NCBI GenBank assembly: GCA_006739055.1
Contig: AP019702.1
Location: forward strand, 4,241,388 to 4,305,387
Length of the DNA: 64,000 nt
Origin: Allostella vacuolata
Lineage (GTDB): Bacteria; Pseudomonadota; Alphaproteobacteria; ATCC43930; Allostellaceae
Direction: 5' to 3'
Below the pieces are notes generated by a model, which made no database searches, was not told the DNA's origin, and saw only the letters and a program-made list of their open reading frames with translations. Shown here one piece after another: positions 2,815-25,458 of the stretch (position 1 is its first letter; each line of letters starts with the position of its first letter). Both the position numbers and the translations under genes were made by a program.

Positions 2815-3842
2815 CCACCGCTGCACCCCGCCCCGACGCGTTTGCCCAGGCCCAGCAGTTGCGCCGGGACGGCAAGCTGGAGCCGGCCCTCAACGTCTGC
2901 AAGGCGATCCTGGCCGCGGCGCCGGACTTCGCGCCGGCATACCACCTGATGGGCACGATCTTCCTGCAGACCCGCCAGCACGGCCACGCGCTGGCGATGT
3001 TCGACGAGGGGCTGCGGCATCGCCCGGACCTGGCACCGCTATGGGCCGGGCGCGGCCAGGTGCTGCGCCTGCAGGACCGGCTGGAGGAATCGGCGGAGAG
3101 CTTCGCCCAGGCGCTGGCGATCGAACCCGACTCGTTCGTCGCCCATGCCAATCTCGGGGCGGTGCTGCGGGGGCTGGGCCGGCTCGCCGAATCCCTCGAG
3201 AGCTACGACCGGGCGCTGGCGATCAAGGAGCGCTCGGCCGACGCCCGGAACGGGCGGGCGCTGACCCTGGAGAGGATGGGGCGGCTCGACGAAGCCGTCG
3301 CCGAAATCGAGGCGGCGCTCACGTTCGAACCGGACTTCGCCGAGGCGCTGAACAATCGCGGGCGGCTGCGGCGGCTGACCGGCCGGGCGGAAGCGGGGCT
3401 GGCCGACATCGACCGGGCCATGACGCTGCGCCCGCCGGGCGGCCGGACATGGCTCAATCGCGCCCAGACCCTGTTGGCCCTGGACCGCCGGGAGGAGGCG
3501 CTGGACAGCCTCGACCAGGCGCTCGCCGTGCGGGCGAACTTTCCCGACGCGCTGATGCTGAAGGCCGAGCTGTTCCTGGCGATGGACCGGGCCGGAGATG
3601 CGGTGGACGCCTACGAAGCATTGCTGGCGATCCAGCCCCGCCTCGTTGTCGCCCATCGCGGCCGGGCGGAATCGCTGCTGATGCTCGGCTGGCTCGGCGA
3701 GGCGCTGGAATCGGCCGACACGGCGCTGGAGCTCGATCCGCACGCCCTGGAGAACCAGATGATGCGCGCCCGCATCCTCGCCCGGATGAGCCATGGGGAC
3801 GAGAGCCCGGCCGGCAGCCGCGATGCATCGCCGGCCGGCTGA
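2811..3842 (+). CDS. TPR-only protein, probably a paralogue that lost its transferase domain
   Basis: 343 residues made almost entirely of TPR units, beginning MTTAAPRPDAFAQAQQLRRD and clearly related to the N-terminal halves of the genes on either side. The GT9-like half present in both neighbours is missing. The protein ends in a low-complexity tail (SPAGSRDASPAG) that overlaps the start of the next gene. The start overlaps the previous stop by four bases. It may be a protein-protein scaffold for the neighbouring transferases, or the remnant of a third full-length copy truncated by recombination between paralogues. Function otherwise unknown. Confidence 0.8.
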   Translation: MTTAAPRPDAFAQAQQLRRDGKLEPALNVCKAILAAAPDFAPAYHLMGTIFLQTRQHGHALAMFDEGLRHRPDLAPLWAGRGQVLRLQDRLEESAESFAQALAIEPDSFVAHANLGAVLRGLGRLAESLESYDRALAIKERSADARNGRALTLERMGRLDEAVAEIEAALTFEPDFAEALNNRGRLRRLTGRAEAGLADIDRAMTLRPPGGRTWLNRAQTLLALDRREEALDSLDQALAVRANFPDALMLKAELFLAMDRAGDAVDAYEALLAIQPRLVVAHRGRAESLLMLGWLGEALESADTALELDPHALENQMMRARILARMSHGDESPAGSRDASPAG

Positions 3843-6009
3843 CGGCGCGCGGCCCCGCCGCCCGGCGGAGACGCGGTCCGCCGCCGAACCACCGCCGGCC
3901 GCGTCGCCGGCCTTCGGGGCGGCGCAGGCCCTGTACCGGGCGGGCGACGCGGCCGGGGCGGACGTCCGCTGCCGGGCGATCCTGGCGCAAACGCCGGGCG
4001 ACCTGCAGGCGCTGCACCTGCTCGGCATCATCGCGCTCGGCCGCGGGGATCACGCCGCGGCCCTGAAGGTCTTCGAGACCGCCCTCGGCCACCGCCCGGA
4101 CCTGGCGGCGTTGTGGACCAACCATGCGGCCGCCCTGCAGGGGCTGCGGCGGCCGGAAGCGGCGCGGGCCAGCCTCGACCGCGCGCTGGCGATCGACCCG
4201 GGCTCGGTCAGCGCGCTCGGCAACATGGCGTCCCTCCTGAAGACCATGGGGCAGCTCGATTCGGCCCTGCTGCATGTCGACCGGGCCCTCGCCCTGCAGC
4301 CGCGCTCGGCCGACCTGCTGAGCAACCGCGGCAACATCCTGGAGCGGCTGCACCGCCCGGCCGAGGCGCTGGCGGCCTTCGACGCGGCGCTGGCGATCCG
4401 CGGCGACCTTGCCGAGGCGCTGAATGGCCGGGCCACGGTGCTGCGCGCGCTCGACCGGCCGCAGGAGGCCCTGGCCGACCTCGACCGGGCCGAACGCCAC
4501 CGCCCGCCCACCGCGAAGACCCGGCTCAATCGCGGCCTGGCCCTGATGCAGCTCAACCTCTTCGACGAGGCGCTCGCCTGTTTCGAGGCGATCCTGGCGG
4601 ACGCCCCGCAGGAGCAGGAGGCGATCCTCCAGCAGGCCGTGGTCCTGGCCGAGCTGAAGCGATACGACGAGGCCGGGGACGTGCTGGATGCCCTGCTGGC
4701 GCGGGAGCCGGATGCCGAGGCGGCGCTGCGAATCCGCTGCGACGTGCGCATCAGGCTCGGCCGGTTCGACGAGGCACTCCTGGATGCCGAGCGGGCGCTC
4801 GCGCTCAACCCCGGCGCGCCCGAGGCGATCGCGGTCCAGGTGCGCGCGCTGCGGCATGTCAACCGGCTGGACGAGGCGGCGCAGCGACTGGAGGCGGCGC
4901 TGGAAGCGGCGCCGGACTCGACCGACCTCCGCTCCGAGTATTTCTTCCTGCTGGTCGCATTGCGCCGCTTCGCCGAGGCGACCGACCATGCCGAGCGGCT
5001 GGTGGCGCAGGCCCCGGCCAAAGATTCGCAACGGTTCGTCCTGGGAGCGCACTACCTGCTTCTGGGCCGCTTGAGAGAGGGATGGCAGCACTACGAGAGC
5101 CGCCACAGGCCACCCAAGGCGGCACTCGCGGACGGCCGCCGGCGGATTCCGACCTGGACCGGGACGGAACCCCTGGCCGGCCGGACGATCCTGCTGCAAT
5201 CGGAACAGGGGCTGGGCGACACGATCCAGTTCTGCCGCTATGCGCCGCGGGTCCATCGCCTGGGCGCCCGGGTGCTGCTGTGGGTGCAGTCGCCGCTCAA
5301 GGGCCTGATGCACAGCCTCGAGGGCGTCGATGCGGTGCTCGGCGCGGGCGACGCGCACCCGGACTGCGACTTCCGCTGCGCGCTGATGAGCCTGCCGCAC
5401 GCCTTCGGCACCACGGTGGAAACGGTCCCGGCCGCCCACTCCTACCTGGCGGCCGAACCGGCCCGGATCGAGGCCTGGCGGCGCCGGCTGCCGGACGACG
5501 GCCGGCCGCGGATCGGCATCGTCTGGTCGGGCAACCCGCGCTACGGCAATGACCGCAACCGCTCGGCCCGCCTGGACCAGTTCCGGCCGCTGTTCGACCT
5601 CGACGCGCACTTCGTCAGCCTGCAGAAGGAGGTGCGGGCGGCCGACATGGCCACCCTGCGCGGCGAGCCGCGCCTCCTGCGGGTCGGCGAGGAGCTGACC
5701 GACTTCTCGGATACGGCCGGGCTGGTCGCGAACCTCGACCTGGTGGTCAGCGTCGACACCTCGGTCGGCCACCTGTCCGCCGCGCTGGGGCGGCCGACCT
5801 GGTTCCTGCTGCCGGCGACGCCCTGCTGGCGCTGGATGCTGGACCGATCCGACACGCCCTGGTATCCGACCGCGACCCTGTTCCGGCAGCAGCGGGCCAA
5901 CGACTGGCCGGGGGTGATCGGCCGGGTGCGCGAGGCCCTGCTGGAGGATGCATCCTTCGGCATGGCGGCCGGCTCCCATGCCCAGGGCCGCATGGCCGCC
6001 GGACGCTGA
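3793..6009 (+). CDS. TPR protein with GT9-like glycosyltransferase domain
   Basis: Up to 738 residues: a disordered, Pro/Arg/Ala-rich N-terminus, about ten TPR units and a C-terminal GT9-like domain. The latter shows the same landmarks as the gene at 1069: SEQGLGDTIQFCRYAP, ALMSLPHAFGT, GIVWSGNPRYGNDRNRS and VSVDTSVGHLSAALG. The start is uncertain. ATG 3793 overlaps the previous gene by 50 bases with only a weak ribosome site; ATG 3823 overlaps by 20. It is the last gene of a three-gene unit and is convergent with the RTX gene, with a palindromic repeat and the RTX terminator in between. Likely a cytoplasmic glycosyltransferase acting on the RTX protein or on a surface glycan (inference). Confidence 0.85.
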   Translation: MGTRARPAAAMHRRPADGARPRRPAETRSAAEPPPAASPAFGAAQALYRAGDAAGADVRCRAILAQTPGDLQALHLLGIIALGRGDHAAALKVFETALGHRPDLAALWTNHAAALQGLRRPEAARASLDRALAIDPGSVSALGNMASLLKTMGQLDSALLHVDRALALQPRSADLLSNRGNILERLHRPAEALAAFDAALAIRGDLAEALNGRATVLRALDRPQEALADLDRAERHRPPTAKTRLNRGLALMQLNLFDEALACFEAILADAPQEQEAILQQAVVLAELKRYDEAGDVLDALLAREPDAEAALRIRCDVRIRLGRFDEALLDAERALALNPGAPEAIAVQVRALRHVNRLDEAAQRLEAALEAAPDSTDLRSEYFFLLVALRRFAEATDHAERLVAQAPAKDSQRFVLGAHYLLLGRLREGWQHYESRHRPPKAALADGRRRIPTWTGTEPLAGRTILLQSEQGLGDTIQFCRYAPRVHRLGARVLLWVQSPLKGLMHSLEGVDAVLGAGDAHPDCDFRCALMSLPHAFGTTVETVPAAHSYLAAEPARIEAWRRRLPDDGRPRIGIVWSGNPRYGNDRNRSARLDQFRPLFDLDAHFVSLQKEVRAADMATLRGEPRLLRVGEELTDFSDTAGLVANLDLVVSVDTSVGHLSAALGRPTWFLLPATPCWRWMLDRSDTPWYPTATLFRQQRANDWPGVIGRVREALLEDASFGMAAGSHAQGRMAAGR

Positions 6010-6426: not shown

Positions 6427-8553
6427 TTACACGGTGTAGTCGACGATGGCCGTGTAGTTCTTGTCGACCGCCGCCTCGAACACGCTGCTGTCGTAGCTGA
6501 AGTCGAAGTTCGCTTCGGTGAAGGTCGCCAGCTGCGCCACCGAGGTGATGTTGGTGATGACCGCGACCGGAGCGGCCCACACTTCGATGCCGGCAAACGA
6601 CCCGCCCACGAGATCGAGGGCGTCGAGGTTGGAGATGTACCAGATCTCCGTGGCGTAGGTGCCGTCGCCCAGCAGCTGGTCGGAGATGACGAAGACCAGC
6701 CCCGGATGATCGCCCGTCGACGGATCGATGTCGGCGATGGAGACCGGGTCGGTCACGAACTGGCCGAGCCAGCCGGTCCCGTGAATACCGCCAATGCTCG
6801 CCGTTCCGATATCGTCCCAGTTCTGGCCGATGTTGATGAGGATATTGTCGTTGCCGTCGATATCCTCGCCGTCGGTGCTCATGTAGACGATCGGCGCGGC
6901 CATGCCGCCGAACAGATCACCGTCGATCAGCAGCCGGTCCTGGCTGGTATCGAAGTCGGTGATGCGATCGAAGACGCTGGTGGTGAAGATATCCAGCGAA
7001 CCCACGGTATCCGCATTCTCGGCGCCGTAGGTCGGGAAGTCGAGCACGAAGGCGTCGGCTCCCTTACCGCCGGTCAGCGTATCGCCGTAGTTGGTGCCGA
7101 GCTCGTAGTCGACGGTGTCCGAGCCCGGGGCCGAGTTGTAGGTGCCGTAGATGTCGTCGCCGCGCAGCGTGTCGGCACCGGCACCGCCGACCAGGCTGTC
7201 CCAGCCGTCGCCGCCGTTCAGCACATAGGACGAGCTGCTTTCCGCCGAGGCATCGATCTTGTCGTTGCCGTAGCGCGCATCGACGAACACCGACGTGCCG
7301 GTGTTGTTGCCGTCGGCGAACTTGACGTAGTCGTCTTCGCTGTTCGAGAAGAGAATGGTCTCGATGTTCTGGATCGACAGGTCGCGCAGCACCAGGTTCG
7401 TCGGCTGCTCGAAGCTGATGATGTCGCTGCCGCTGCCGCCGTCGTTCTGGTCGGCGATGAACAGGCCACGCTCATAGTCGATGGTGTCGTTGCCTTCGCC
7501 GCCGGACGCATGGATCTGCGTGTTCGGCTGCACCTGGCTGAACGCGTAGCCCGACGTATCGTCGACTTCCAGGTAGTCCTTGCCGTCGCCGCCGAGCAGC
7601 GTCTTCATGCCGATCGAGGTCGCCTGGATCTCCAGGATGTCGTCGTCGACGCCGCCGCTCAGCGTGTCGTCACCGAAGTTGCCGGCGCTCAGCGTGTCGT
7701 TGCCGCCGTCGCCATAGACCTCGATGTCGCCGGCATTGGCCGTCAGCAGCGCCTTGTCGTTGTTCTCGCCCATATAGACGAGATGGTCGCCCGTGGTGGA
7801 CGTGATGAGGACGAGATCCTGCATCTTGTCCATGTAGATCAGCTTGTCGCCGGTGTCGCTGTTGCCCAGCGTCACCGTGTCGTTGCCGTTGCCGGCGAAG
7901 ACGGTGTCGTTGCCGGTGTCCGGATCGATGACGTCGTTGCCCGAACCGCCGTACAGGATGTCGTTGCCCGAACCGCCGTTCAGGTTGTCGTTGCCGAGGT
8001 CACCGGCCACCTGGTCGTTGCCGGCCCCGCCGAGAACCGTGTCGTTCTCCTGGCCGCCATACAGCGAGTCGTTGCCCGCACCGCCCGAGATGCTGTCCGC
8101 GCCGGTGTTGCCATAGACGCGGTCGGCCGCATCGCCGGTGGCGATCGTGTCCGCACCGCCCAGGCCCCACACCTGCACCGACTGCAGCGCGGCGCTCAGC
8201 GGCACCACGTTGCCGGAGTCATCGAGGACCGTGTCCGTGTCGCGCTGGCCGACCCAGAGCTGGCCGCCGTTCGACAGGACGATGTTCTGCGACGCATCGC
8301 TCGCATCGACGCCGACCTGGCGAATGACCATGTTCGGGATGTAGGCATAGCGCACGTCGGCCGCGGCCAGCGGCGCGCCGGTCGCATCGCGCGACTTGAC
8401 GATGGCGAGGTCGGTACCGACCTCGACCAGATCGAACTGGCTGGCCGCCAGGGACGGGTCGGAAACCTGAAGCACGTCCGAACGGAAATCGAACGACTGC
8501 CCCAGGATCTTCAGATCCAGGTTGCTGGCCCCATTCCAACTAAAAATTGCCAT
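6427..8553 (-). CDS. Large RTX calcium-binding protein, putative type I secreted surface protein
   Basis: 708 residues, very rich in Asp, Asn and Gly, acidic and without Cys. Residues about 130-260 carry a block of GGxGxDxxx nonapeptides (GGAGNDSLYGGQENDTVLGG and following) that bind calcium in a parallel beta-roll. Further scattered repeats follow to about residue 520. There is no N-terminal signal peptide, as expected for a type I substrate. The C-terminal 150 residues lack repeats and would hold the secretion signal; the end is Asp/Val-rich (IVDYTV). A full GAGGAGGT ribosome site lies at 8562-8569, about 8 bases before the ATG. The strong site, the terminator and lower GC than its neighbours suggest high expression. 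An S-layer or adhesin role is possible, by analogy with RsaA of Caulobacter. Confidence 0.88.
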   Translation of the reverse strand: MAIFSWNGASNLDLKILGQSFDFRSDVLQVSDPSLAASQFDLVEVGTDLAIVKSRDATGAPLAAADVRYAYIPNMVIRQVGVDASDASQNIVLSNGGQLWVGQRDTDTVLDDSGNVVPLSAALQSVQVWGLGGADTIATGDAADRVYGNTGADSISGGAGNDSLYGGQENDTVLGGAGNDQVAGDLGNDNLNGGSGNDILYGGSGNDVIDPDTGNDTVFAGNGNDTVTLGNSDTGDKLIYMDKMQDLVLITSTTGDHLVYMGENNDKALLTANAGDIEVYGDGGNDTLSAGNFGDDTLSGGVDDDILEIQATSIGMKTLLGGDGKDYLEVDDTSGYAFSQVQPNTQIHASGGEGNDTIDYERGLFIADQNDGGSGSDIISFEQPTNLVLRDLSIQNIETILFSNSEDDYVKFADGNNTGTSVFVDARYGNDKIDASAESSSSYVLNGGDGWDSLVGGAGADTLRGDDIYGTYNSAPGSDTVDYELGTNYGDTLTGGKGADAFVLDFPTYGAENADTVGSLDIFTTSVFDRITDFDTSQDRLLIDGDLFGGMAAPIVYMSTDGEDIDGNDNILINIGQNWDDIGTASIGGIHGTGWLGQFVTDPVSIADIDPSTGDHPGLVFVISDQLLGDGTYATEIWYISNLDALDLVGGSFAGIEVWAAPVAVITNITSVAQLATFTEANFDFSYDSSVFEAAVDKNYTAIVDYTV

Positions 8554-8592
8554 AACTGGCTACCTCCTCGCCGTATTACCCACTTTGGCCTT

Positions 8593-8610
8593 GCCGGGCA
8601 CAAGCCCGGC
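8593..8610 (-). other. 5' leader hairpin of the RTX mRNA
   Basis: GCCGGGC and GCCCGGC form a 7-bp stem with a four-base loop about 40 bases upstream of the RTX start. There is no T-tract, so this is not a terminator; a role in transcript stability is conceivable. The rest of 8554-8670 holds the ribosome site and no clear promoter. Confidence 0.35.
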
Positions 8611-8790
8611 CGCCGGCTCCCAGTCCGAGAACTCGCGGCGGGAGGGTAGAGAGAAGCCTCCGGCCGACGCAAGCAGTTTCGTCCTGGCACTCCGGGCCTG
8701 GGCCCGGGCGGGTCTCCGTCGTTGCATCGAGGCAACGTTGCGGTCGACCCTGGTGCTGGTCAGTCATACCGCGAGCGCCGGAGGTTCAAA

Positions 8791-8846
8791 GTGACGGCGG
8801 TCACAACCGGGAAAATTTGCCGGGCGGGCCGGCTGCACGCTAAGGT
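8791..8846 (+). promoter_or_regulatory. Candidate promoter and operator of GT4 copy A
   Basis: Inverted repeat GTGACGGCGGTCAC (8791-8804), then GGGAAAATT (8809-8817), and 23 bases later TAAGGT (8841-8846). The same AAAATT with 23-base spacing to a TATATG box occurs on the minus strand upstream of the GT4 gene at 16173. An exact second copy lies at 11453-11508. Confidence 0.4.
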
Positions 8847-8952
8847 CGGCGGCGGGGGCGGCCGCGAAGGACGCGCGCCGGGGGGCGGCAGGCGGGCGGG
8901 GATGCGGGAACAGAGCGATCGCGACGCGGGACCGGGGCATGCGCCGCCGGGG

Positions 8953-10029
8953 ATGACCATCTACAGCCATTTCAGCACCCCCACCGGCCTGGCCGTCGCG
9001 GCGCGCGGAACGGCCAGCGCGGCCGCGGCCGCGGGCATTCCCGTGCGTCTGGCCGAATTCCGGCCCGGCATGATGGAGCCGCCGACCCAGCCGATCACCG
9101 TGCTCCACACCCATCCGGACATCGCCTTGCGGCTGATCGAGAAGGGCTGGTGCCCTGCCGCCCGGCTCCTCAAGTCCCGGTTCACGGTTGGCTGCTGGAA
9201 TTTCGAGGCGCCCGACGTCCTTCCGACCGGGTGGGACGACGCCGCCTCGCTGGTCGACGAAATCTGGGCCCCGAGCAGCTTCGCCGCCAGTGCCGGAGCG
9301 CCGCAGTTCCCGGTGCCGGTCGTCCCCATGCCGCTGTGCATCAGCCCGGTCGCCGGGCCGCATGGCCGGGCCGAGTTCGGCATCGAGGAGTCCGCCTTCG
9401 TCTTCCTGTTCGTGTTCGATGCCAACAGCACCGTCGCGCGCAAGAACCCGCAGGGCGTCATCCAGGCGTTCGTCCAGGCGTTCCCCGTGCCGGAGAGCCG
9501 GATTCGCCTGGTCCTGAAGACGCGCGCCTTCCCCGAGGACGCGTTCCTGCACCTGCAGCGCCAGCTCGCGGTCCGGCCCGACATCCGCTTCGTCAACGAG
9601 ACCTGGAGCGACCCCAGGACCAAGGCGCTGATTGCCGCCTGCGACTGCTACATATCGCTGCACCGCGCGGAGGGCTTCGGGCTGACCATGGCCGAGGCGA
9701 TGTATTTCGGCAAGCCGGTGATCGCCACGGGATATTCCGGCAACCTCGATTTCACCCTGCCGGAGAACAGCCACCTGGTGCCCTACCGCTGGATGCGCCT
9801 CGAACAGCAGGCGGGGTCGCTGCCGGCCGGCATGCGGATGGCCGAGCCCGATGTGGATGCCGCCGCCCGGCTGATGCGCCGGGTGGTCGAGCGGCCGGCG
9901 GAATCCCGCGCGCTGGGGGCCCGCGCGGCGGCGTTCATGCGCAGCCAGTTCAGCGCGCAGGCGGTCGGCGCCCGGATCCGGGCGCGGGTCGAGCTGCTGC
10001 AGCGCAGCGGCCGGCTCGACCGTCGATAG
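8953..10029 (+). CDS. GT4-type glycosyltransferase, duplicate A
   Basis: 358 residues from ATG 8953 (ATG 8902 is an alternative; neither has a good ribosome site). The C-terminal half carries the family 4 donor-site signature HRAEGFGLTMAEAM at 237-250, followed by GKPVIATGYSGNLDF. The N-terminal half, which in GT-B enzymes forms the acceptor side, differs strongly from duplicate B between about residues 28 and 160, while the rest is nearly identical. It is ten bases upstream of the next gene. Probably a cytoplasmic or membrane-associated enzyme adding a sugar to a surface polysaccharide; the sugar is unknown. Confidence 0.85.
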   Translation: MTIYSHFSTPTGLAVAARGTASAAAAAGIPVRLAEFRPGMMEPPTQPITVLHTHPDIALRLIEKGWCPAARLLKSRFTVGCWNFEAPDVLPTGWDDAASLVDEIWAPSSFAASAGAPQFPVPVVPMPLCISPVAGPHGRAEFGIEESAFVFLFVFDANSTVARKNPQGVIQAFVQAFPVPESRIRLVLKTRAFPEDAFLHLQRQLAVRPDIRFVNETWSDPRTKALIAACDCYISLHRAEGFGLTMAEAMYFGKPVIATGYSGNLDFTLPENSHLVPYRWMRLEQQAGSLPAGMRMAEPDVDAAARLMRRVVERPAESRALGARAAAFMRSQFSAQAVGARIRARVELLQRSGRLDRR

Positions 10030-10039
10030 GCACCCCGCC

Positions 10040-11263
10040 ATGACCGTCTTCCTGATGCAGGGCGGGCTTCGCGATGCCCGTTCGCTCGGCGCCGCGCTCG
10101 GCTGGATCGAGGCCGGGCGCAGCATGGGGTTTGCGCTGCGGATCCACGCCTCCCGCGACATCCCGCCGGCGATCCGGGCGGCGACCGGGGCGGTCCCGAC
10201 CTTCACCTGGGCGCCCGACGCCCAACCGGTCCGCGATCCGGCCTACGACCGGCTCGGCAACCTCGTGGAGCTCGGCCTGCAGTTCGCGGCCGACTGCCGT
10301 TCGATCCCCCTCGACGCGGTGGGCGCGGCCGACCTGATCGTCCTCGACGACGCCTGCCCCGGCGACATCTTCGGGCTCTCCCTGTGGCTGGACAGGCTGC
10401 CCCCGGACCGCCGGCCGCGCGTGCATTGCCAGTTCCGGGCTCCGGACTTCGACTGGACGGTCAACGCGGCGGCCGGGACGGTGGTCGGCGACACGGTGCA
10501 CCATCGCTACGCCATGGAGCGTCTGGAGCGATGCGCCGGCCGGGAGCGGACGGTCTTCGCCGCGGCCGCGCCGCAGCTGTGCGCCGCCCTGGCATCGATC
10601 GCCGGGCGGTGCCGGCTGTCGCCCGCCGGGGTCCATGTCGTCGACGCGGCGACCGAAGCGCGCCTCCTGGCCCGGCCCCCCTCCCCCCACGACATCGCCA
10701 TCCTCGGCCATCTCCGGCCGGAACATGGCAGCGCGGGGCTGGTGGAGATCCTGAAGCGGTTCGCCGCGCACCGGCCCGGCCGGTCGGCCCTGGTACAGCT
10801 GCGCCAGCCCGAACAGGCGGCCCGCCTGCGCCAGGCCATGGCCGAGGGGCCGCCCCTGGCGCTGACGACCGTGGCCGGCGACCAGTCCATGGAGGACCAT
10901 GCCCGGGCGCTGCTGTCGTCGCGCATCGTCCTGCTGCCCTATTCCCCGGCGCGCTACCGGATGCGGGTGTCCGGCATCATGGCCGAGGCCGCCGCCTACG
11001 GCCGGCCGGTGGTCGTGCCGGGCCGGACCTGGATGGGCGAGCAGGTGGCCGGAGGGGCCGTCGCCGGGGTCGTCTTCGAGGTACCCTCGGCCGAGGCCGC
11101 CGCCGAGGCCGCCGCCGCCGCGCTCGACCGGCTGCCGCAGCTGGCCGCCGCAGCCACCGGGCTACGCGCGGCGTGGCGCCGGCAGCATTCCTTTGCCGCC
11201 TATGTGCGGTTCGTGCGGCATCACGGCCGGCCGGACGAGGGTTCAGTATGCGCGTCCACCTGA
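10040..11263 (+). CDS. Glycosyltransferase-like protein (GT-X), duplicate A, full length
   Basis: 407 residues, related over its full length to the protein at 13790. Shared landmarks are an N-terminal (M/I)Q(G/N)GL motif followed by an alpha-helix with GW(I/L)EAG, a central RPRVxCQF, ILGHLRPEHGS near residue 230 and the C-terminal block YGRPVVVPGRTWMGEQ. The two-Rossmann layout and C-terminal block resemble GT-B transferases, but no family signature is certain. Its 3' end overlaps the start of the truncated third gene by 16 bases. It probably works with the adjacent GT4 enzyme. Confidence 0.72.
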   Translation: MTVFLMQGGLRDARSLGAALGWIEAGRSMGFALRIHASRDIPPAIRAATGAVPTFTWAPDAQPVRDPAYDRLGNLVELGLQFAADCRSIPLDAVGAADLIVLDDACPGDIFGLSLWLDRLPPDRRPRVHCQFRAPDFDWTVNAAAGTVVGDTVHHRYAMERLERCAGRERTVFAAAAPQLCAALASIAGRCRLSPAGVHVVDAATEARLLARPPSPHDIAILGHLRPEHGSAGLVEILKRFAAHRPGRSALVQLRQPEQAARLRQAMAEGPPLALTTVAGDQSMEDHARALLSSRIVLLPYSPARYRMRVSGIMAEAAAYGRPVVVPGRTWMGEQVAGGAVAGVVFEVPSAEAAAEAAAAALDRLPQLAAAATGLRAAWRRQHSFAAYVRFVRHHGRPDEGSVCAST

Positions 11264-11505
11264 TCCAGAACGGGCTGGTCGACCGGCATTCGCATTATCT
11301 GGGGCTGACCATGGGCTGGCTCGAGGCCGGCCAAGCAGTTTCGTCCTGGCACTCCGGGCCTGGGCCCGGGCGGGTCTCCGTCGTTGCATCGAGGCAACGT
11401 TGCGGTCGACCCTGGTGCTGGTCAGTCATACCGCGAGCGCCGGAGGTTCAAAGTGACGGCGGTCACAACCGGGAAAATTTGCCGGGCGGGCCGGCTGCAC
11501 GCTAA
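11248..11505 (+). pseudogene. Truncated 5' fragment of the third glycosyltransferase gene (GT-Y)
   Basis: The first 28 codons (MRVHLIQNGLVDRHSHYLG and on to LEAG) match the intact gene at 13790. At 11332-11333 the sequence jumps into the leader of unit B and the frame runs on to a chance stop at 11505. It is a by-product of the tandem duplication. Confidence 0.9.
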
Positions 11506-11508
11506 GGT
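11453..11508 (+). promoter_or_regulatory. Candidate promoter and operator of GT4 copy B
   Basis: Exact copy of 8791-8846: inverted repeat GTGACGGCGGTCAC, AAAATT at 11474-11479 and TAAGGT at 11503-11508. It lies inside the run-on frame of the truncated gene fragment. Confidence 0.4.
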
Positions 11509-11614
11509 CGGCGGCGGGGGCGGCCGCGAAGGACGCGCGCCGGGGGGCGGCAGGCGGGCGGGGATGCGGGAACAGAGCGATCGCGACGCGGGACCGGGGC
11601 ATGCGCCGCCGGGG

Positions 11615-12691
11615 ATGACCATCTACAGCCATTTCAGCACCCCCACCGGCCTGGCCGTCGCGGCGCGCGGAACGGCCAGTGCCGCCGCGGCCGCGGGCAT
11701 TCCCGTGCAGTTGGCCGAATTCCGGCCCGGCATGACGGATCCGCCGACCCAACCGATCACCGTGCTCCACACCAACCCCGACATCGTGCTGCACCTGATC
11801 CGCAAAGGCCTGTTCTCCGCGGACCGGCTGCGCGAGGGCCGGTTCACGATCGGCTGCTGGGCATTCGACGGCCTCGACATCCTGCCGGAAGGATGGGCCG
11901 AGGCCATTCCGCTGGTCGACGAGGTCTGGGCTCCCAGCACCTTCTCGGCCAGCGCCGGAGCTCCTCTCCTTCCGGTGCCGGTCGTCCCCATGCCGCTGTG
12001 CGTCGCCCCGGTCGCCGGGCCGCACGGCCGGGCCGATTTCGGCATCGAGGAGTCCGCCTTCGTCTTCCTGTTCGTGTTCGATGCCAACGGCACCATCGTG
12101 CGCAAGAACCCGCAGGGCGTCATCCAGGCGTTCGTCCAGGCGTTCCCCGTGCCGGAGGGCCGGATTCGCCTGGTCCTGAAGACGCGCGCCTTCCCCGAGG
12201 ACGCGTTCCTGCACCTGCAGCGCCAGCTCGCGGTCCGGCCCGACATCCGCTTCGTCAACGAGACCTGGAGCGACCCCAGGACCAAGGCGCTGATCGCCGC
12301 CTGCGACTGCTACATATCGCTGCACCGCGCGGAGGGCTTCGGGCTGACCATGGCCGAGGCGATGTATTTCGGCAAGCCGGTGATCGCCACGGGATATTCC
12401 GGCAACCTCGATTTCACCCTGCCGGAGAACAGCCACCTGGTGCCCTACCGCTGGATGCGCCTCGAGCAGCAGGCGGGGGCGCTGCGGGCCGGCATGCGGA
12501 TGGCCGAGCCCGATGTGGATGCCGCCGCCCGGCTGATGCGCCGGGTGGTCGAGCGGCCGGCGGAATCCCGCGCGCTGGGGGCCCGCGCGGCGGCGTTCAT
12601 CCGCGACCAGTTCAGCGCGCAGGCGGTCGGCGCCCGGATCCGGGCGCGGGTCGAGCTGCTGCAGCGCAGCGGCCGGCTCGACCGTCGATAG
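11615..12691 (+). CDS. GT4-type glycosyltransferase, duplicate B
   Basis: 358 residues, with the same start context, C-terminal signature (HRAEGFGLTMAEAM) and last residues (LLQRSGRLDRR) as duplicate A. Between about residues 28 and 160 it differs at many positions: TNPDIVLHLIRKGLFSADRL here against THPDIALRLIEKGWCPAARL in A, and CWAFDGLDILPEGW against CWNFEAPDVLPTGW. The divergence is confined to the acceptor-side domain. The likely meaning is the same donor sugar with a different acceptor or linkage (inference). Confidence 0.85.
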   Translation: MTIYSHFSTPTGLAVAARGTASAAAAAGIPVQLAEFRPGMTDPPTQPITVLHTNPDIVLHLIRKGLFSADRLREGRFTIGCWAFDGLDILPEGWAEAIPLVDEVWAPSTFSASAGAPLLPVPVVPMPLCVAPVAGPHGRADFGIEESAFVFLFVFDANGTIVRKNPQGVIQAFVQAFPVPEGRIRLVLKTRAFPEDAFLHLQRQLAVRPDIRFVNETWSDPRTKALIAACDCYISLHRAEGFGLTMAEAMYFGKPVIATGYSGNLDFTLPENSHLVPYRWMRLEQQAGALRAGMRMAEPDVDAAARLMRRVVERPAESRALGARAAAFIRDQFSAQAVGARIRARVELLQRSGRLDRR

Positions 12692-12701
12692 GCACCCCGC
12701 C

Positions 12702-13805
12702 ATGACCGTCTTCCTGATGCAGGGCGGGCTTCGCGATGCCCGTTCGCTCGGCGCCGCGCTCGGCTGGATCGAGGCCGGGCGCAGCATGGGGTTTGCGCTG
12801 CGGATCCACGCCTCCCGCGACATCCCGCCGGCGATCCGGGCGGCGACCGGGGCGGTCCCGACCTTCACCTGGGCGCCCGACGCCCAACCGGTCCGCGATC
12901 CGGCCTACGACCGGCTCGGCAACCTCGTGGAGCTCGGCCTGCAGTTCGCGGCCGACTGCCGTTCGATCCCCCTCGACGCGGTGGGCGCGGCCGACCTGAT
13001 CGTCCTCGACGACGCCTGCCCCGGCGACATCTTCGGGCTCTCCCTGTGGCTGGACAGGCTGCCCCCGGACCGCCGGCCGCGCGTGCATTGCCAGTTCCGG
13101 GCTCCGGACTTCGACTGGACGGTCAACGCGGCGGCCGGGACGGTGGTCGGCGACACGGTGCACCATCGCTACGCCATGGAGCGTCTGGAGCGATGCGCCG
13201 GCCGGGAGCGGACGGTCTTCGCCGCGGCCGCGCCGCAGCTGTGCGCCGCCCTGGCATCGATCGCCGGGCGGTGCCGGCTGTCGCCCGCCGGGGTCCATGT
13301 CGTCGACGCGGCGACCGAAGCGCGCCTCCTGGCCCGGCCCCCCTCCCCCCACGACATCGCCATCCTCGGCCATCTCCGGCCGGAACATGGCAGCGCGGGG
13401 CTGGTGGAGATCCTGAAGCGGTTCGCCGCGCACCGGCCCGGCCGGTCGGCCCTGGTACAGCTGCGCCAGCCCGAGCAGGCGGCCCGCCTGCGCCAGGCCA
13501 TGGCCGAGGGGCCGCCCCTGGCGCTGACGACCCTGGCCGGCGACCAGTCCATGGAGGACCATGCCCGGGCGCTGCTGTCGTCGCGCATCGTCCTGCTGCC
13601 CTATTCCCCGGCGCGCTACCGGATGCGGGTGTCCGGCCTCATGGCCGAGGCCGCCGCCGCCGCGCTCGACCGGCTGCCGCAGCTGGCCGCCGCAGCCACC
13701 GGGTTGCGCGCGGCGTGGCGCCGGCAGCATTCCTTTGCCGCCTATGTGCGGTTCGTGCGGCATCACGGCCGGCCGGACGAGGGTTCAGCATGCGCGTCCA
13801 CCTGA
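12702..13805 (+). CDS. Glycosyltransferase-like protein (GT-X), duplicate B, internally deleted
   Basis: 367 residues, nearly identical to the 407-residue copy A except for an in-frame loss of 40 residues after MRVSGLMAEAAA. The missing piece contains the block GRPVVVPGRTWMGEQ, which is conserved in copy A and (as GRVVVAPARTWMAEQ) in the paralogue at 13790. In copy A the deleted stretch is bounded by GCCGAGGCCGCCGCC at 10982 and 11102, exactly 120 bases apart, which points to slippage between direct repeats. The protein is probably inactive or altered. It overlaps the next gene's start by 16 bases. Confidence 0.75.
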   Translation: MTVFLMQGGLRDARSLGAALGWIEAGRSMGFALRIHASRDIPPAIRAATGAVPTFTWAPDAQPVRDPAYDRLGNLVELGLQFAADCRSIPLDAVGAADLIVLDDACPGDIFGLSLWLDRLPPDRRPRVHCQFRAPDFDWTVNAAAGTVVGDTVHHRYAMERLERCAGRERTVFAAAAPQLCAALASIAGRCRLSPAGVHVVDAATEARLLARPPSPHDIAILGHLRPEHGSAGLVEILKRFAAHRPGRSALVQLRQPEQAARLRQAMAEGPPLALTTLAGDQSMEDHARALLSSRIVLLPYSPARYRMRVSGLMAEAAAAALDRLPQLAAAATGLRAAWRRQHSFAAYVRFVRHHGRPDEGSACAST

Positions 13806-15007
13806 TCCAGAACGGGCTGGTCGACCGGCATTCGCATTATCTGGGGCTGACCATGGGCTGGCTCGAGGCCGGCCGCGACCTCGGCATTCCGATCACCGTC
13901 TATGGCGGGACGCGCATAGTGCCGGAGGTGCGGCAGGAAACCGGCGCCCTGCCGATCTTCCACTACCAGGCCGACGTGGCGCTGCCGCGCGATTCGGCGG
14001 ATCTCCAGCGGGTCGCCACCTTCGTCGAGCTCGGGATTGCCTTCGCGGCCGGTTGCCAGGCCATCCCGCCCGGGTCGATCGCCCCGGGCGACCTCGTCGT
14101 CCTCGACTTCGCCAGCGCACCCGACATGTTCGGCCTGGCGCTCGCGCTCGGCGCCCTGCCGCCGGCACGGCGGCCGCGAGTGCTGTGCCAGTTCCATGTC
14201 CTGGACTACGAACTCGCCCGCGACGCGACCGATGGCCCGCCCGCCGGCGACATCTCGACCTACCGCTATGCCATCCGCAAGCTGGCGGCGACGGTCGGGC
14301 GCGACCGGGTCTTTCTCTGCACCGCCGCGCCGGCGCTGGCGCGGGCCCTGTCGCGGATCTTCGACCATCCCTGCCGCCTGTCGCCGATGCCGATCCGCCT
14401 CGGCCATCCCGCCGTGCCGACGGCGGATGCGGCCCCGGCCCACGACGTCGCGGTGATCGGCGAGTTCCGGCCGGAGCGCGGCAGCCTCCTCCTTCCGGAC
14501 ATCCTCCGCCGCCTCGGCCGGCTGCGCCCCGGACGGTCGGCGATGATCCAGGTCCGGTCGGCCGAGCAGGTCGGGCCGCTGCGCCATGCCGCCGACCAGG
14601 CATCGGTGCCGCTGTCGACCCTGGTCGGCGACCTCGGCGCCGAGGACTATGTCCGCGCCCTGCTCGGCGCGCGCATCCTCCTCCTGCCCTACCGGCCGGA
14701 GCGCTACGCGCTGCGCACCTCCGGCGTCTTTGCCGAGGCGGTCGCCCACGGCCGGGTCGTGGTCGCCCCGGCCAGGACCTGGATGGCCGAGCAGATCGAG
14801 GCCGGGCGCGCCGCCGGCGTCACCTTCGATGCCCATACCGCCGGGTCCGTGGCCCAGGCGGTCGCCACGGCGATCGACGACCTGCCCCGGCTGGAATCCC
14901 GGGCCCGGATGCTGGCGCCCGCATGGCGGCAGCAGCATTCGTCGCACGCGCTGGCCGCGTTCGCGATCGCCCTGCCGGCGGCCGGTGGGGGCGATCCGCG
15001 AGTCTAG
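13790..15007 (+). CDS. Glycosyltransferase-like protein (GT-Y), intact third gene of the cassette
   Basis: 405 residues, paralogous to the two GT-X genes: MRVHLIQNGLVDRHSHYLG at the start, RPRVLCQFHVLDYE in the centre, VIGEFRPERGSLLLPDIL near residue 225 and GRVVVAPARTWMAEQ near 320. The layout suggests a GT-B fold, but the family cannot be named with certainty. Its start lies inside the 3' end of GT-X copy B, so translation is probably coupled. The stop codon shares the four bases CTAG (15004-15007) with the stop of the convergent GT4 gene, leaving no room for a terminator. Confidence 0.75.
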   Translation: MRVHLIQNGLVDRHSHYLGLTMGWLEAGRDLGIPITVYGGTRIVPEVRQETGALPIFHYQADVALPRDSADLQRVATFVELGIAFAAGCQAIPPGSIAPGDLVVLDFASAPDMFGLALALGALPPARRPRVLCQFHVLDYELARDATDGPPAGDISTYRYAIRKLAATVGRDRVFLCTAAPALARALSRIFDHPCRLSPMPIRLGHPAVPTADAAPAHDVAVIGEFRPERGSLLLPDILRRLGRLRPGRSAMIQVRSAEQVGPLRHAADQASVPLSTLVGDLGAEDYVRALLGARILLLPYRPERYALRTSGVFAEAVAHGRVVVAPARTWMAEQIEAGRAAGVTFDAHTAGSVAQAVATAIDDLPRLESRARMLAPAWRQQHSSHALAAFAIALPAAGGGDPRV

Positions 15008-16173
15008 CCCGCGATGGCCGCGGACGCCTTGCGGCGCACCGCCCGCTCCAGGACCGCTTCCATCGCCCGGTAGTGCCGATCGCCCGAGAAGCGCTCGCGG
15101 TATCGGTTCTGGGCGGACCTCGCCAGGGCGAACGCCAGCTCCGGGTCGCGGCGAATCATCTCGATGTTGCCGGCCAGCACCCGGAAGTCGCCGACCGGTG
15201 CCAGCAGCGCATCGACCCCGTGGCGGAGGTAGCCCTGCACGGCGGGCAGATCGGATGCGACGACCGGAATGCCGAGCGCCATCGCTTCCAGGATAGCGAG
15301 CGACTGCGACTCGTCGCGCGACGGCAGGCACTTGACGTCGGCCTCCCGGAGGATCGCCAGCACTTCGGCCGGGCTGCGCTCGCCGAGCCACCGCACGTTC
15401 TTCAGGGACGCCCAGTCGATGCCGTCCATGTCGGCGCGCATCCCGCCGACGAAGTAGAACAGGATCGGCTCGCGCGCCAGATGGGCGGCGGCGGCCAGCA
15501 ACAGGTCATGGCCCTTGGGACGGGACACCGGCGCCACCGTCAGCACGCAGAACACGCCGGGCTCCAGCAGTCGGCGCTTCCGCACGCGCTCGACCGGCAG
15601 GATCGGCGCGTGGCTGGTATTCTCGACCACCGACACGTTGGACCGGCCGTGGACCCAGGGGCGATAGACGACCTCGCGCTGGAACTCGCTGACGAAGACG
15701 ATTTCCGCGGCCGCGGAGAAGGCCGCCGACGTGCCGGCCAGATCCGGCAGAAATGAGTGGCCGATCCAGGATTCGTGAATCCACCAGACGATCGGTATGC
15801 GATGGCCGAGGTCCCGCACGACATCGTGCGCCAGCAGCGTGTTGCACAGGATCAGGTCGAATTCCTGTGCCCGCACTTCATGAACGATCGGAATCCCGAG
15901 CTTGCGGTACCCCTCGGACAGCGCCCCCGCGGGGTTCCGGCGGCTGGCCGCGACGATCTCGTAGCGCGGCTGCAGCCACTCGACCAGCCGGCACAGGGAC
16001 AGGGGCGCGCCGGTCCGGGTCATTTCGTGACAGACCACCAGGAGCCTCGGCTTCCTCGCCGACCCTCGCGCATCCTGCTGCCGTCCCCGGTCCGGGGGTG
16101 GCGGCGCCGGGCGCCCCCTCGGGTCGACATTGCGCGGCCCACCCGCCAACGGCGTCCTGTTCCCTGCCACCAT
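15004..16173 (-). CDS. GT4-type glycosyltransferase
   Basis: 389 residues from ATG 16173, which has AAGGGCG about 6 bases upstream; an upstream in-frame start at 16221 lacks this. A Pro/Arg-rich N-terminus of about 40 residues precedes PRLLVVCHEMTRTGAPLSL, the start of the first Rossmann domain. The donor domain follows: LTVAPVSRPKGHDLLL, then PSRDESQSLAILEAMALGIP, which is the E-x7-E region of family 4, and VVASDLPAVQGYL. No membrane segment is seen. A candidate promoter lies at 16202-16241. Likely a step in surface glycan assembly. Confidence 0.85.
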   Translation of the reverse strand: MVAGNRTPLAGGPRNVDPRGRPAPPPPDRGRQQDARGSARKPRLLVVCHEMTRTGAPLSLCRLVEWLQPRYEIVAASRRNPAGALSEGYRKLGIPIVHEVRAQEFDLILCNTLLAHDVVRDLGHRIPIVWWIHESWIGHSFLPDLAGTSAAFSAAAEIVFVSEFQREVVYRPWVHGRSNVSVVENTSHAPILPVERVRKRRLLEPGVFCVLTVAPVSRPKGHDLLLAAAAHLAREPILFYFVGGMRADMDGIDWASLKNVRWLGERSPAEVLAILREADVKCLPSRDESQSLAILEAMALGIPVVASDLPAVQGYLRHGVDALLAPVGDFRVLAGNIEMIRRDPELAFALARSAQNRYRERFSGDRHYRAMEAVLERAVRRKASAAIAG

Positions 16174-16201
16174 GCAACGCCCTTGTCGTAACCATTGATA
16201 G

Positions 16202-16280
16202 CATATAGCGGCCGCGACCATGCCTGTCCGAATTTTCCCGGCCGGCGGCGGGGTCGCGGCAGGACAAGGGGAAAATCCGG
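16202..16280. promoter_or_regulatory. Divergent promoter region with two GGGAAAAT boxes
   Basis: On the minus strand, GGGAAAATT (16231-16239) is followed 23 bases later by TATATG (16202-16207), which would give a roughly 20-base leader for the GT4 gene. On the plus strand GGGGAAAATCC (16268-16278) faces the GT2 gene but lacks a -10-like box at that spacing. The same box occurs at 8809 and 11471. The rest of 16174-16388 shows nothing clear. Confidence 0.4.
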
Positions 16281-16388
16281 CCCGCCACGGCCACCCGGGC
16301 CGCCGCCGCCCACCTCACCTGTTGACGACCCCGCCCGCAGCGGGCATGTCCCCTGACGCTCCCGGCTCACCCCACAAGGTCCCTGCTC

Positions 16389-19548: not shown

Positions 19549-20248
19549 GCCGCTCGAAGGCCGCCACCCGCGGCCGGTAGAGGTCGAGCAGCGGGCCGCG
19601 CAGGGACGGGCGCAGGGGCGTGCCCTCGCCCGCATTGACGCGCTGGGCCAGCCGCTCGGCCGACAGGCGCAGGACCGGGGCGGGATCGATGGCGAGATGG
19701 CGGCAGGCGGCCGCCAGCACGCCCGCCGGGTCGGCCACCAGGTCGTCATAGAGCAGGATCAGCACCTGCTCGCGCGGGAAGGCGCCGAGCCAGGTCTCCA
19801 GGCAACGCGCATAGTCGCCGCGCCCCAGCGACTGCTCGGAGCGGAAGACGTCGAGGAACCAGGCGTCGGACGCCTCGCGCTCGTACATCAGGCCCCAGCG
19901 CAGCACCATGAGGGCGGCCGACCAGGCGCGCTCGACCGGGTTGCGGGCGATGAACAGCAGGCGGGCGCCCGGCATCGCGGCATGGACGGCGGCGACCGAT
20001 TCGGCGGGCAGCACGGCATAGCCCGGCGTCACGTCGCCGATCCGGGCGCCGTCGGAGGCACCCGCGAACTGGGCCCGGTACCAGTCGAGGCCGCGGCCCC
20101 GGTTCCAGTCCCAGAAATGCACCTCCTTGCCGGCCGGGAAAGCCAGGCCCGGATGGTCGGACAGCATCTCGAACAGCCAGGTGGTGCCCGCCTTCTGCGC
20201 CCCGATGCCGAGGAAGTCGGGCAGCCGGCCCGTCGCCGGCTCCGTCAT
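19514..20248 (-). CDS. Sulfotransferase
   Basis: 244 residues, a compact sulfotransferase. The PAPS-binding loop FLGIGAQKAGTTWLFEML is at about 12-29, HFWDWNRGRGLDWY at about 44-57, and LLFIARNPVERAWSA at about 97-111 covers the 3'-phosphate Arg/Ser pair. It is the last gene of a five-gene coupled operon with wzt, wzm, the 467-residue protein and the HAD phosphatase (start overlaps the wzt stop by ATGA). With the other sulfotransferase at 17336 it indicates a sulfated exported polysaccharide. Confidence 0.87.
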   Translation of the reverse strand: MTEPATGRLPDFLGIGAQKAGTTWLFEMLSDHPGLAFPAGKEVHFWDWNRGRGLDWYRAQFAGASDGARIGDVTPGYAVLPAESVAAVHAAMPGARLLFIARNPVERAWSAALMVLRWGLMYEREASDAWFLDVFRSEQSLGRGDYARCLETWLGAFPREQVLILLYDDLVADPAGVLAAACRHLAIDPAPVLRLSAERLAQRVNAGEGTPLRPSLRGPLLDLYRPRVAAFERLIGRELPGWRE

Positions 20249-21561
20249 CGCGCACCATCCGGCAGCGGCGAGGCGTCCGATTCGAAGTCGAGGTCGACCA
20301 GGCCGGCGCGCCAGCGGTCGGGGTCGGGCATCACCTTGAACATGGCGGCATCCACGAGACGATGGAGGAAGCGGCGCTCGGCCCCGGTCTCGGCCGAGAC
20401 GCCGGCATTGACGAAATAGGTGCCGGGCAGCAGCCGGCAGCGGAAGGCGTGGCGCACCGACCAGACCTCGCCCGCATGCACCTCGGCCAGCGCCCGGCCG
20501 GCCGCCGCCGTCGACCCGCCGGCCAGCTCGGTGCCGGCGACGGTGCGGATCAGGGTGCCGAAGCTGACGCCGGACGCGGTCTCGGCGAACCGGACCCGGC
20601 AGCGGATCTCGTAGGCGCCGCCGCGGCGCAGGACGTTGACGGGCTTGCCCTCGGGCGTGGTCACCCGCAGCTCGGCGATCTCCGCACCGGCCGGCTCGTA
20701 GACCACGGCGCTGGCCGGGCGCAGATCGGCATCAAGGAAGGCGTCGTCGACCGGCGCCTCGACCGGCTCGGTCTCGGCCGCGCCGTCGCGGATCGCCTGG
20801 CGCAGGGTCGACCGGCGCTCGGCCGGGGCGAACAGCAGGCGGTGGTACTGGGCGACCACGCCGCGCGGCTCGCCCGCCGCCAGCATCTCGCCGTCGTCGA
20901 TCAGGATGGCGCGGTCGCAGAGCTGGGTGACGTGGGAGGCCGCGTGCGAGACGAACAGGATGGTGCCGCCCGCGGCCCGGAACCGCTCCAGCCGGGCGAA
21001 GCACTTGCGCTGGAACGCCTCGTCGCCGACCGCCAGCGCCTCGTCGACGATCAGGATGTCGGGCTCCACATGCACCGCGACCGCGAACGCAAGGCGCACC
21101 CCCATGCCGCTCGAATAGGTGCGCAGCGGCTGGTCGAGATGGTCGCCGAGGTCGGCGAAGGCGGCGATCGAGGGCATGGCGTCGGCGATCTGGCGGTCGT
21201 CGAGGCCGAGGATGGCGGCGTTGAGGCGGGCGTTCTCGCGCCCCGTGAAGTCCGGATGGAAGCCCGCCCCCAGCTCCAGCAGGGCCGAGATGCGGCCGGC
21301 GGCGGCGACCGAGCCCGTGGTCGGGTTCATGGTCCCGGCGATGATCTGCAGCAGGGTCGACTTGCCCGATCCGTTGCGGCCGACCAGGCCCACGGTCTCG
21401 CCGCGCGCCACCTGGAAGCTGACGTCGCGCAGCGCCCAATGCTCGTCGACATGGGCCGGCTGGCGCAGCAGGGCCTGGCGCACGCGGTCCCACGGCGCGG
21501 CATAGCGGCGATAGACCTTGCTGACCCGGTCGACGGTAAGCGCCGGCATCTCAGAGGACAT
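20245..21561 (-). CDS. wzt: ABC transporter ATP-binding protein for polysaccharide export, with C-terminal carbohydrate-binding domain
   Basis: 438 residues. The N-terminal ATPase has Walker A GRNGSGKST near 62, signature YSSGMGVRLAFAVA near 150 and Walker B DILIVDEALAVGDEAF near 173. Residues about 290-430 form the beta-rich domain that in extended Wzt proteins recognises the modified end of the glycan (ELRVTTPEGKPVNVL, then GTYFVNAGVSAETG). It works at the cytoplasmic face of the inner membrane with the permease encoded just upstream (11-base overlap). The C-terminal domain implies that a specific chain-end modification licenses export; the neighbouring methyl- and sulfotransferases are candidates. 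Confidence 0.92.
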   Translation of the reverse strand: MSSEMPALTVDRVSKVYRRYAAPWDRVRQALLRQPAHVDEHWALRDVSFQVARGETVGLVGRNGSGKSTLLQIIAGTMNPTTGSVAAAGRISALLELGAGFHPDFTGRENARLNAAILGLDDRQIADAMPSIAAFADLGDHLDQPLRTYSSGMGVRLAFAVAVHVEPDILIVDEALAVGDEAFQRKCFARLERFRAAGGTILFVSHAASHVTQLCDRAILIDDGEMLAAGEPRGVVAQYHRLLFAPAERRSTLRQAIRDGAAETEPVEAPVDDAFLDADLRPASAVVYEPAGAEIAELRVTTPEGKPVNVLRRGGAYEIRCRVRFAETASGVSFGTLIRTVAGTELAGGSTAAAGRALAEVHAGEVWSVRHAFRCRLLPGTYFVNAGVSAETGAERRFLHRLVDAAMFKVMPDPDRWRAGLVDLDFESDASPLPDGAR

Positions 21562-24521: not shown

Positions 24522-24531
24522 CAGCCTTCGA

Positions 24532-24579
24532 TTCCAGGTTGGCTCGGTTCCAGGTTGCCTCGGTCCCAGGTTGGTCTGC
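24532..24579. repeat. Three tandem copies of a 16-bp repeat
   Basis: TTCCAGGTTGGCTCGG, TTCCAGGTTGCCTCGG and TCCCAGGTTGGTCTGC follow one another just upstream of the HAD start, in the divergent region shared with the methyltransferase at 24706. This could be a replication-slippage product or a repeated protein-binding site. The rest of 24522-24705 shows no clear promoter. Confidence 0.7.
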
Positions 24580-24705
24580 CCCGACGCGGGGGGCGGATGG
24601 GCCGGCGCATGCTTAGCGACAAGAGCCGGCAAAATCCATGGGCACGAAGGCCGGCCCTCGCGAGCGCGCTTGACGAACGGGGGCCGGCCATGGTCGGACA
24701 GGCCG

Positions 24706-25437: not shown

Positions 25438-25458
25438 CCGGCGGGCGCGAGCCCGGTC

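Follow-up and report, generated by a model that had tools for sequence, protein, structure and literature searches.

A tandem duplication of a GT4 glycosyltransferase gene in Stella vacuolata with divergence concentrated in the acceptor-side domain

Related glycosyltransferases and the surface-glycan locus

Retaining GT-B enzymes of the GT4 type consist of two Rossmann domains, one of them a Glycos_transf_1 donor domain, and the nearest solved structures to the enzymes described here (chlorella virus B736L, PDB 3oy2; HepE, 4xsu; BshA, 3mbo) are alike at a TM-score of about 0.7, with approximately 15 % sequence identity at most. In GT-B enzymes the N-terminal domain serves the acceptor and the C-terminal domain the donor, and engineered chimeras of the two domains are active (PMC10937113). 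PssG and PssI of Rhizobium leguminosarum are homologous to each other and belong to a single polysaccharide locus of this alphaproteobacterium, in which they are reported to act in a complementary fashion (PMC9961541). Among the nearest relatives found by sequence were two Azospirillum plasmid glycosyltransferases (accession numbers WP_136701587.1 and WP_246024712.1), with 44–49 % identity over the GT4 domain.

Stella vacuolata (Allostella vacuolata in GTDB) is a star-shaped soil bacterium; its genome paper mentions eleven further Stella isolates (PMC6687932). The window examined is a 64,000-nucleotide stretch of its genome (GenBank accession number AP019702.1, positions 4,241,388 to 4,305,387), and it includes two GT4 copies which, unlike the solved GT4 enzymes, have one donor domain and two acceptor domains between them. 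The principle is the same as in the engineered chimeras, but here the exchange looks natural, involves close homologues (approximately 74 % identical in the diverged part) and has left both forms side by side. The S. vacuolata pair differs mainly in one domain. In the Azospirillum proteins the GT4 region is one domain of a large protein (approximately 1195 aa), present in single copy and in other surroundings. The literature searched, coverage of which was incomplete, gave no fitting precedent for tandem glycosyltransferases with a naturally mosaic acceptor domain. As duplication, gene conversion and the domain modularity of GT-B enzymes are all known, the claim made here is a modest one.

A Wzt-type gene at 20245–21561 encodes ABC_tran and Wzt_C domains and is adjoined by a permease-like reading frame, with sulfotransferase and GT2 genes nearby. 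With a Wzt_C ABC transporter and glycosyltransferases in the vicinity, the locus is predicted to be of the Wzm/Wzt surface-glycan type. The GT4 copies lie in a glycosyltransferase cassette at about 8811–16380 (about 7.5 kb in all) that the matching site lacks in Stella humosa and Stella sp. ATCC 35155, the RTX and GT2 genes being about 0.4 kb apart in both, and on this comparison the cassette is a lineage-specific insertion. It also carries a further GT4 gene (15004–16221, minus strand), identified with Pfam, for which searches of three further Stella genomes gave no hit at an E-value of 1e-20. The base composition gave no sign of foreign origin (GC content 0.726 versus 0.735 nearby).

The tandem repeat and its diverged patch

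Self-BLAST and base-by-base comparison revealed head-to-tail copies of a 2662-bp unit with a spacing of 2662, in agreement with the 2.66-kb repeat of the original prediction. Unit A (8670–11331, plus strand) contains a leader, GT4-A, gene 2A and the first 28 codons of gene 3, while unit B (11332–13874, plus strand), which is shorter because of a 120-bp deletion in gene 2, contains the leader, GT4-B, gene 2B and the start of the intact gene 3. The units meet between GGCCGGCC and AAGCAG, with microhomology of about 1 nt. The leader of unit A (8670–8952, plus strand) is identical to 11332–11614, and some of this leader goes back to the intergenic region that ancestrally separated RTX and GT2.

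GT4-A (8953–10029, plus strand) and GT4-B (11615–12691, plus strand) are each 358 aa long and differ at 41 residues. The start of GT4-A was placed by family alignment, and earlier in-frame starts are available at 8902, 8791 and 8722. Both copies match Glycos_transf_1 (PF00534, E=2e-12 for GT4-A) above the curated cut-off (47.5 and 45.2 bits versus 26.4), and the donor-side residues R163, K164, K189 and E240-G241-F-G243 are kept with the family in both. The AlphaFold models (pLDDT 92.5 and 93.1) have the same secondary structure and show two facing Rossmann-like domains in a GT-B fold; the best PDB matches of the GT4-A model are GT-B enzymes. Gene 2A (10040–11263, plus strand, 407 aa) is intact and encodes a GT-B-like glycosyltransferase with a PF13692 match below its curated cut-off. 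Gene 2B (12702–13805, plus strand) has lost 40 aa in frame, the missing part corresponding to 10982–11101 of copy A and lying between 16-bp direct repeats; its Pfam match is gone and it is probably non-functional. No relatives of gene 2 were found on plasmids. Gene 3 is present as a 5′ fragment truncated at the unit junction (11248–11331, plus strand, the end of unit A) and as an intact gene (13790–15007, plus strand, 405 aa), which is a paralogue of gene 2 (45 % identity).

Over 8670–10981 the units differ at 86 sites, of which 75 fall within the 420 bp of 9018–9437 (11680–12099 in GT4-B). Upstream there were 0 differences in 348 bp, and downstream, as far as the 120-bp deletion, 11 in 1544 bp. 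This concentration was not reached in any of 2000 shuffles in a scan statistic (Fisher P = 3e-46, with boundaries set post hoc). BIC segmentation gave difference densities of 0.000 for 8670–9017, 0.085 for 9018–9111, 0.298 for 9112–9309, 0.025 for 9310–9944 and 0.003 for 9945–10981, so that divergence is stepped, with a 198-bp core (9112–9309, or 11774–11971 in GT4-B; 59 of 198 sites) and graded edges rather than two clean breakpoints. Outside the patch, 8 differences are in 9438–9944, 3 at 10813–10976 and 3 at 11162–11247, while the 868 bp of 9945–10812, spanning the junction between GT4 and gene 2, are identical.

These data bear on several points of the original prediction. Its patch coordinates (about 9019–9430) were right, and the substitution density along both units proved uneven, as it expected; the stepped profile excludes uniform drift, which it had held incapable of yielding such a mosaic. 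Its residues 28–160 describe the same tract, but the numbers depend on the start codon and, counted from the family-consistent ATG at 8953, become 22–162, with the core at approximately 54–119. The leader is noncoding and identical as claimed, with no difference in 8670–9017. The claim that the rest is conserved needs qualifying, as 14 differences and the 120-bp deletion lie outside the patch. The assignment of the patch to the acceptor-side half also stands: in the GT4 model the strands and helices of the N-domain extend to residue 125 and the first C-domain strand is at 149–154, and in this model the limits of the patch nearly coincide with those of the N-terminal Rossmann domain, on the acceptor side. 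Near-invariant family residues are changed in both copies (N54H in A; E85D and S159G in B), and it is therefore possible that one copy is weakened in function.

Divergence of the patch and the search for a donor

At 4-fold degenerate sites common to A and B, 10 of 66 differ in residues 22–162 and 0 of 115 in 163–358. The dS of the patch is 0.34 overall and approximately 0.66 over 9090–9310, which is divergence at the level of species, as seven neighbouring orthologues gave 0.34–0.57 between S. vacuolata and its congeners. The residue is altered in 36 of the 54 changed codons and dN/dS is 0.37–0.48, which suggests that the two versions were functional enzymes under constraint while they diverged. 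The ratio of amino-acid differences in the N- and C-terminal parts is 11.2 for A versus B, whereas among 377 homologous pairs it had a median of 1.18 and never exceeded 1.59. As synonymous sites share the profile and homologous pairs lack such a contrast, structural constraint alone is ruled out.

No donor for the patch was found in the one S. vacuolata genome searched, three other Stella genomes, a 385-genome sample of the class, a collection of genome contigs, plasmids or viral contigs; a second strain of the species would be its likeliest source. An internal donor was rejected, as sequence searches of the genome itself returned only a paralogue with 36 % identity at 3,838,247 and a partial match with 32 %, and so was a viral source, the viral contigs being without any relative. 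Beyond the partner copy, no convincing DNA match was found, and the closest match had approximately 45–49 % protein identity. The original prediction had proposed looking for a patch closer to another strain or locus; none was found, the A and B patches being each other's nearest relatives in the sequences searched. Patch and flank trees both join A with B, the shared phylogeny that the original prediction had named as refuting it, but as these trees include no close relative, the evidence is carried by the branch lengths (0.385 and 0.030, respectively), not by topology. Neither the near-invariant residues nor the discriminating sites among homologues (split 159:157 between the copies) favour either copy as the holder of the imported patch.

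Possible histories and function

The acceptor-side half has diverged like genes between Stella species while the rest is near identical, which makes replacement by recombination probable. The history we favour, and consider reasonably likely, is a recent tandem duplication, one copy of which acquired the acceptor domain of an allele diverged to species level. In the lineage of S. vacuolata, the cassette (GT4, gene 2, gene 3 and another GT4) would have entered a conserved surface-glycan locus with Wzt and sulfotransferase genes, between RTX and GT2. The 2662-bp piece, from the regulatory leader through GT4 and gene 2 into the beginning of gene 3, would then have duplicated in tandem by illegitimate recombination, after which approximately 0.3–0.4 kb of one GT4 copy, encoding the N-terminal acceptor-side Rossmann domain, would have been replaced by homologous recombination from an allele about as diverged as Stella species are. 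Alternatively, unequal exchange between two such alleles may have brought both units together. Either way, the outcome would be two intact GT4 enzymes that share leader and donor-side domain but not the acceptor-side domain, alongside a decayed gene 2B. The species-level patch dS and near-identical flanks are as predicted when module import was first proposed, but the donor was not found.

The main alternative is an old duplication whose copies first diverged over their full length, after which gene conversion between them homogenised everything except the acceptor domain, kept apart by selection or heteroduplex rejection. All 14 flank differences are no more than approximately 0.5 kb away from either the patch or the deletion of 120 bp, with none in the other 1216 bp; such clustering is expected where heterology blocks adjacent conversion, and the stepwise fall of divergence at the patch edges is also consistent with it, but the regions for this comparison were chosen post hoc. 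The pair would have to be about as old as the split of the Stella species, but the two congeners in which the site can be inspected lack the cassette, making in-place divergence of that age unlikely, and the noncoding leader and decaying gene 2B would also need homogenising. We regard this history as somewhat unlikely and infer module import instead of selective homogenisation.

The mosaic may be real and the perfect flank identity partly due to the assembler collapsing isolated differences, which would be compatible with either history. Short-read assemblers collapse simple bulges. The genome is a Unicycler/Pilon hybrid assembly with Nanopore reads averaging 4.9 kb (PMC6687932; reads deposited as DRA008500), shorter than the 5.2 kb of the repeat, and the surviving flank differences are all near large heterology. 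However, such an effect could not produce a 420-bp tract with 75 differences and a dN/dS below 1, coverage was 330× and at 9496 and 9633 the assembly kept differences that are fairly isolated, so we judge it unlikely. Adaptive or hotspot point mutation restricted to the acceptor domain since a recent duplication, which would include mutagenesis targeted as by diversity-generating retroelements, would suit a patch in the domain expected to set specificity and its many altered residues, but is highly improbable given the species-level synonymous divergence, the dN/dS below 1 and a spectrum without adenine bias (A is involved in 12 of the 75 differences in copy A and 14 in copy B).

Under the favoured reading, GT-B architecture makes it plausible that GT4-A and GT4-B use one donor sugar on two acceptors. 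More tentatively, a recent natural exchange of acceptor domains may have produced a pair of co-regulated GT4 enzymes which transfer one and the same sugar to different surface-glycan acceptors; Stella would then possess a pool of acceptor-domain alleles that can be exchanged on a shared donor-domain chassis. This would be an example of recombination at the scale of a domain as a possible source of diversity in bacterial surface glycans, with the sugar supply unchanged. The specificity of glycosyltransferases is not easily predicted from sequence, and a natural pair with a common donor domain that differs mainly on the acceptor side offers a clean experiment, in which a difference in product should trace to approximately 30 residues.

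No sigma-70 promoter was found when the leader was scanned. The leader does contain a CRP/FNR-like palindrome, TTCAAAGTGACGGCGGTCACA, at 8785–8805, and the corresponding intergenic regions of two further Stella genomes have kept this palindrome. A motif scan located the second copy on unit B at 11447–11467, and these are the only two sites in the whole window, where 0 were expected.

A tandem duplication with one diverged patch

The segment at 8670–11331 is repeated head to tail at 11332–13874 (units A and B). Each unit contains, in order, a 283 bp leader, a GT4 gene, gene 2 (GT-like) and the opening codons of gene 3, which is present at full length only downstream of unit B (13790–15007). Microhomology at the unit junction was limited to approximately 1 base, which fits the expectation for illegitimate recombination.

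Upstream of a 120 bp deletion in unit B, the two units differ at 86 of 2312 aligned sites, 75 of them within a single patch at 9018–9437. BIC segmentation identified five segments with difference densities of 0, 0.085, 0.298, 0.025 and 0.003. Uniform drift was ruled out, as originally predicted, and so was constraint alone. At the 4-fold degenerate sites common to GT4-A and GT4-B, 10/66 differ in residues 22–162 but 0/115 in residues 163–358, and the ratio of N-terminal to C-terminal differences is 11.2, compared with a median of 1.18 and a maximum of 1.59 for 377 homologue pairs. The contrast thus reflects age or origin and not solely selection on residues. The dN/dS values (0.48 across the patch and 0.37 across 9090–9310) indicate that both versions of the patch evolved as constrained proteins.

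The few coding differences outside the patch mostly alter residues, in line with either relaxed or positive selection, the numbers being too small to tell these apart. Every difference in the flanks sits close to either the patch or the deletion, and the remaining 1216 bp are free of them. This pattern means either that nearby heterology blocked gene conversion or that the assembler smoothed out isolated differences elsewhere; in both cases the patch itself is unaffected. The assembly is a Nanopore and Illumina hybrid produced by Unicycler with Pilon polishing (PMC6687932), and the genome of S. vacuolata ATCC 43931 (Stella is now named Allostella) is one contig of 5,834,761 bp. The chromosomes of S. 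humosa ATCC 43930 and Stella sp. ATCC 35155 are 5,832,650 and 5,339,096 bp, respectively (PMC6687932).

The cassette and its leader

The units form part of a GT cassette of approximately 7.5 kb (interval 8554–16388) that is absent from S. humosa and ATCC 35155, where the RTX-repeat and GT2 genes are only ~0.4 kb apart rather than 7.8 kb. No anomaly in base composition was detected in the cassette (GC 0.726). To its right is a conserved surface-glycan locus with the GT2 gene (85–88% identity to the two congeners), sulfotransferases and a Wzt-type ABC transporter carrying Wzt_C (86–88%).

The leader retains pieces of the ancestral RTX-GT2 intergenic region, including the palindrome TTCAAAGTGACGGCGGTCACA, found once per unit (8785–8805 and 11447–11467) and nowhere else in the window, where none was expected. 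It is kept with few changes in the matching intergenic region of three Stella species. From its sequence, the palindrome resembles a CRP/FNR-family site (GTGA-N6-TCAC) and is likely a control element, of which unit B would have its own copy.

The window includes one RTX-repeat gene (6427–8553), whereas two or more are adjacent in S. humosa and ATCC 35155 (joined loci L117 and L118, ~20996–26916, and L119 and L120, ~20356–26085); the size of this array differs among Stella species. Left of the RTX gene, two genes (52–2814 and 3793–6009) that share ~73% DNA identity across 0.5 kb encode TPR-repeat proteins with GT9-like segments at the C-terminus.

Age and origin of the patch

The NG86 dS was 0.34 across the patch and 0.66 across 9090–9310, and about 9/33 4-fold sites differ between A and B in residues 47–126. 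For seven neighbouring genes, dS relative to the S. humosa and ATCC 35155 orthologues was 0.34–0.57, with 23–37% of 4-fold sites differing. This similarity indicates that the two acceptor domains separated roughly when the Stella species did. The remainder of the unit is either far younger or has been homogenised.

A closer match to the patch in another strain or locus, as the original prediction envisaged, was not found. Within the S. vacuolata genome, only one paralogue (36%) and a partial match (32%) turned up. At the DNA level, four Stella genomes yielded only the partner copy, one 69% match (~170 bp) and negligible short matches. One genome per species was covered, and the likeliest place for a donor is other S. 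vacuolata strains. The closest relatives outside the Stella genomes share 45–49% protein identity. A and B were sisters in all trees, separated by distances of 0.385 for the patch, 0.552 for its core (9112–9309) and 0.030 for the C-terminal half. Import is supported by the long patch branch and by the lack of the cassette in the congeners, and the acceptor domain of one GT4 copy was probably replaced through recombination with a diverged allele.

The GT4 enzymes and gene 2B

GT4-A (8953–10029) and GT4-B (11615–12691) were modelled as GT-B folds with identical secondary structure (mean pLDDT 92.5 and 93.1, respectively), and the closest solved structures were GT4-type enzymes. The modelled N-terminal domain spans residues ~1–125 and the donor domain begins at the strand formed by residues 149–154. 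The patch (residues 22–162), above all its core (~54–119), therefore falls within the acceptor-side domain, in agreement with the original prediction. The conserved W-x-[WF]-E region reads CWNFEAPD in A and CWAFDGLD in B; E85, invariant across 29 homologues, is D in GT4-B. In addition, S159 is replaced by G in GT4-B and N54 by H in GT4-A. This region and positions 85, 159 and 54 are prime candidates for altered specificity or weakened activity.

The two enzymes would use one donor sugar on two acceptors, a proposal supported in principle because the roles of the GT-B domains are established and engineered GT-B chimeras work (PMC10937113). The mosaic is real and well defined and, though its ingredients are already known, poses a clean functional question.

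Gene 2B (12702–13805) has an in-frame 120 bp deletion between 16 bp direct repeats that removes 40 residues, including a stretch common to genes 2A and 3, and a Pfam match was no longer detected in its product. In a near-identical duplicate this is an early step of decay. If unit B has been retained by selection, it was probably retained for GT4-B.

In another Stella genome, a single open frame of 1006 codons includes two related GT4 domains (L005, contig G003:C92, 505–2583), a fused pair that offers a possible comparison for the tandem pair.
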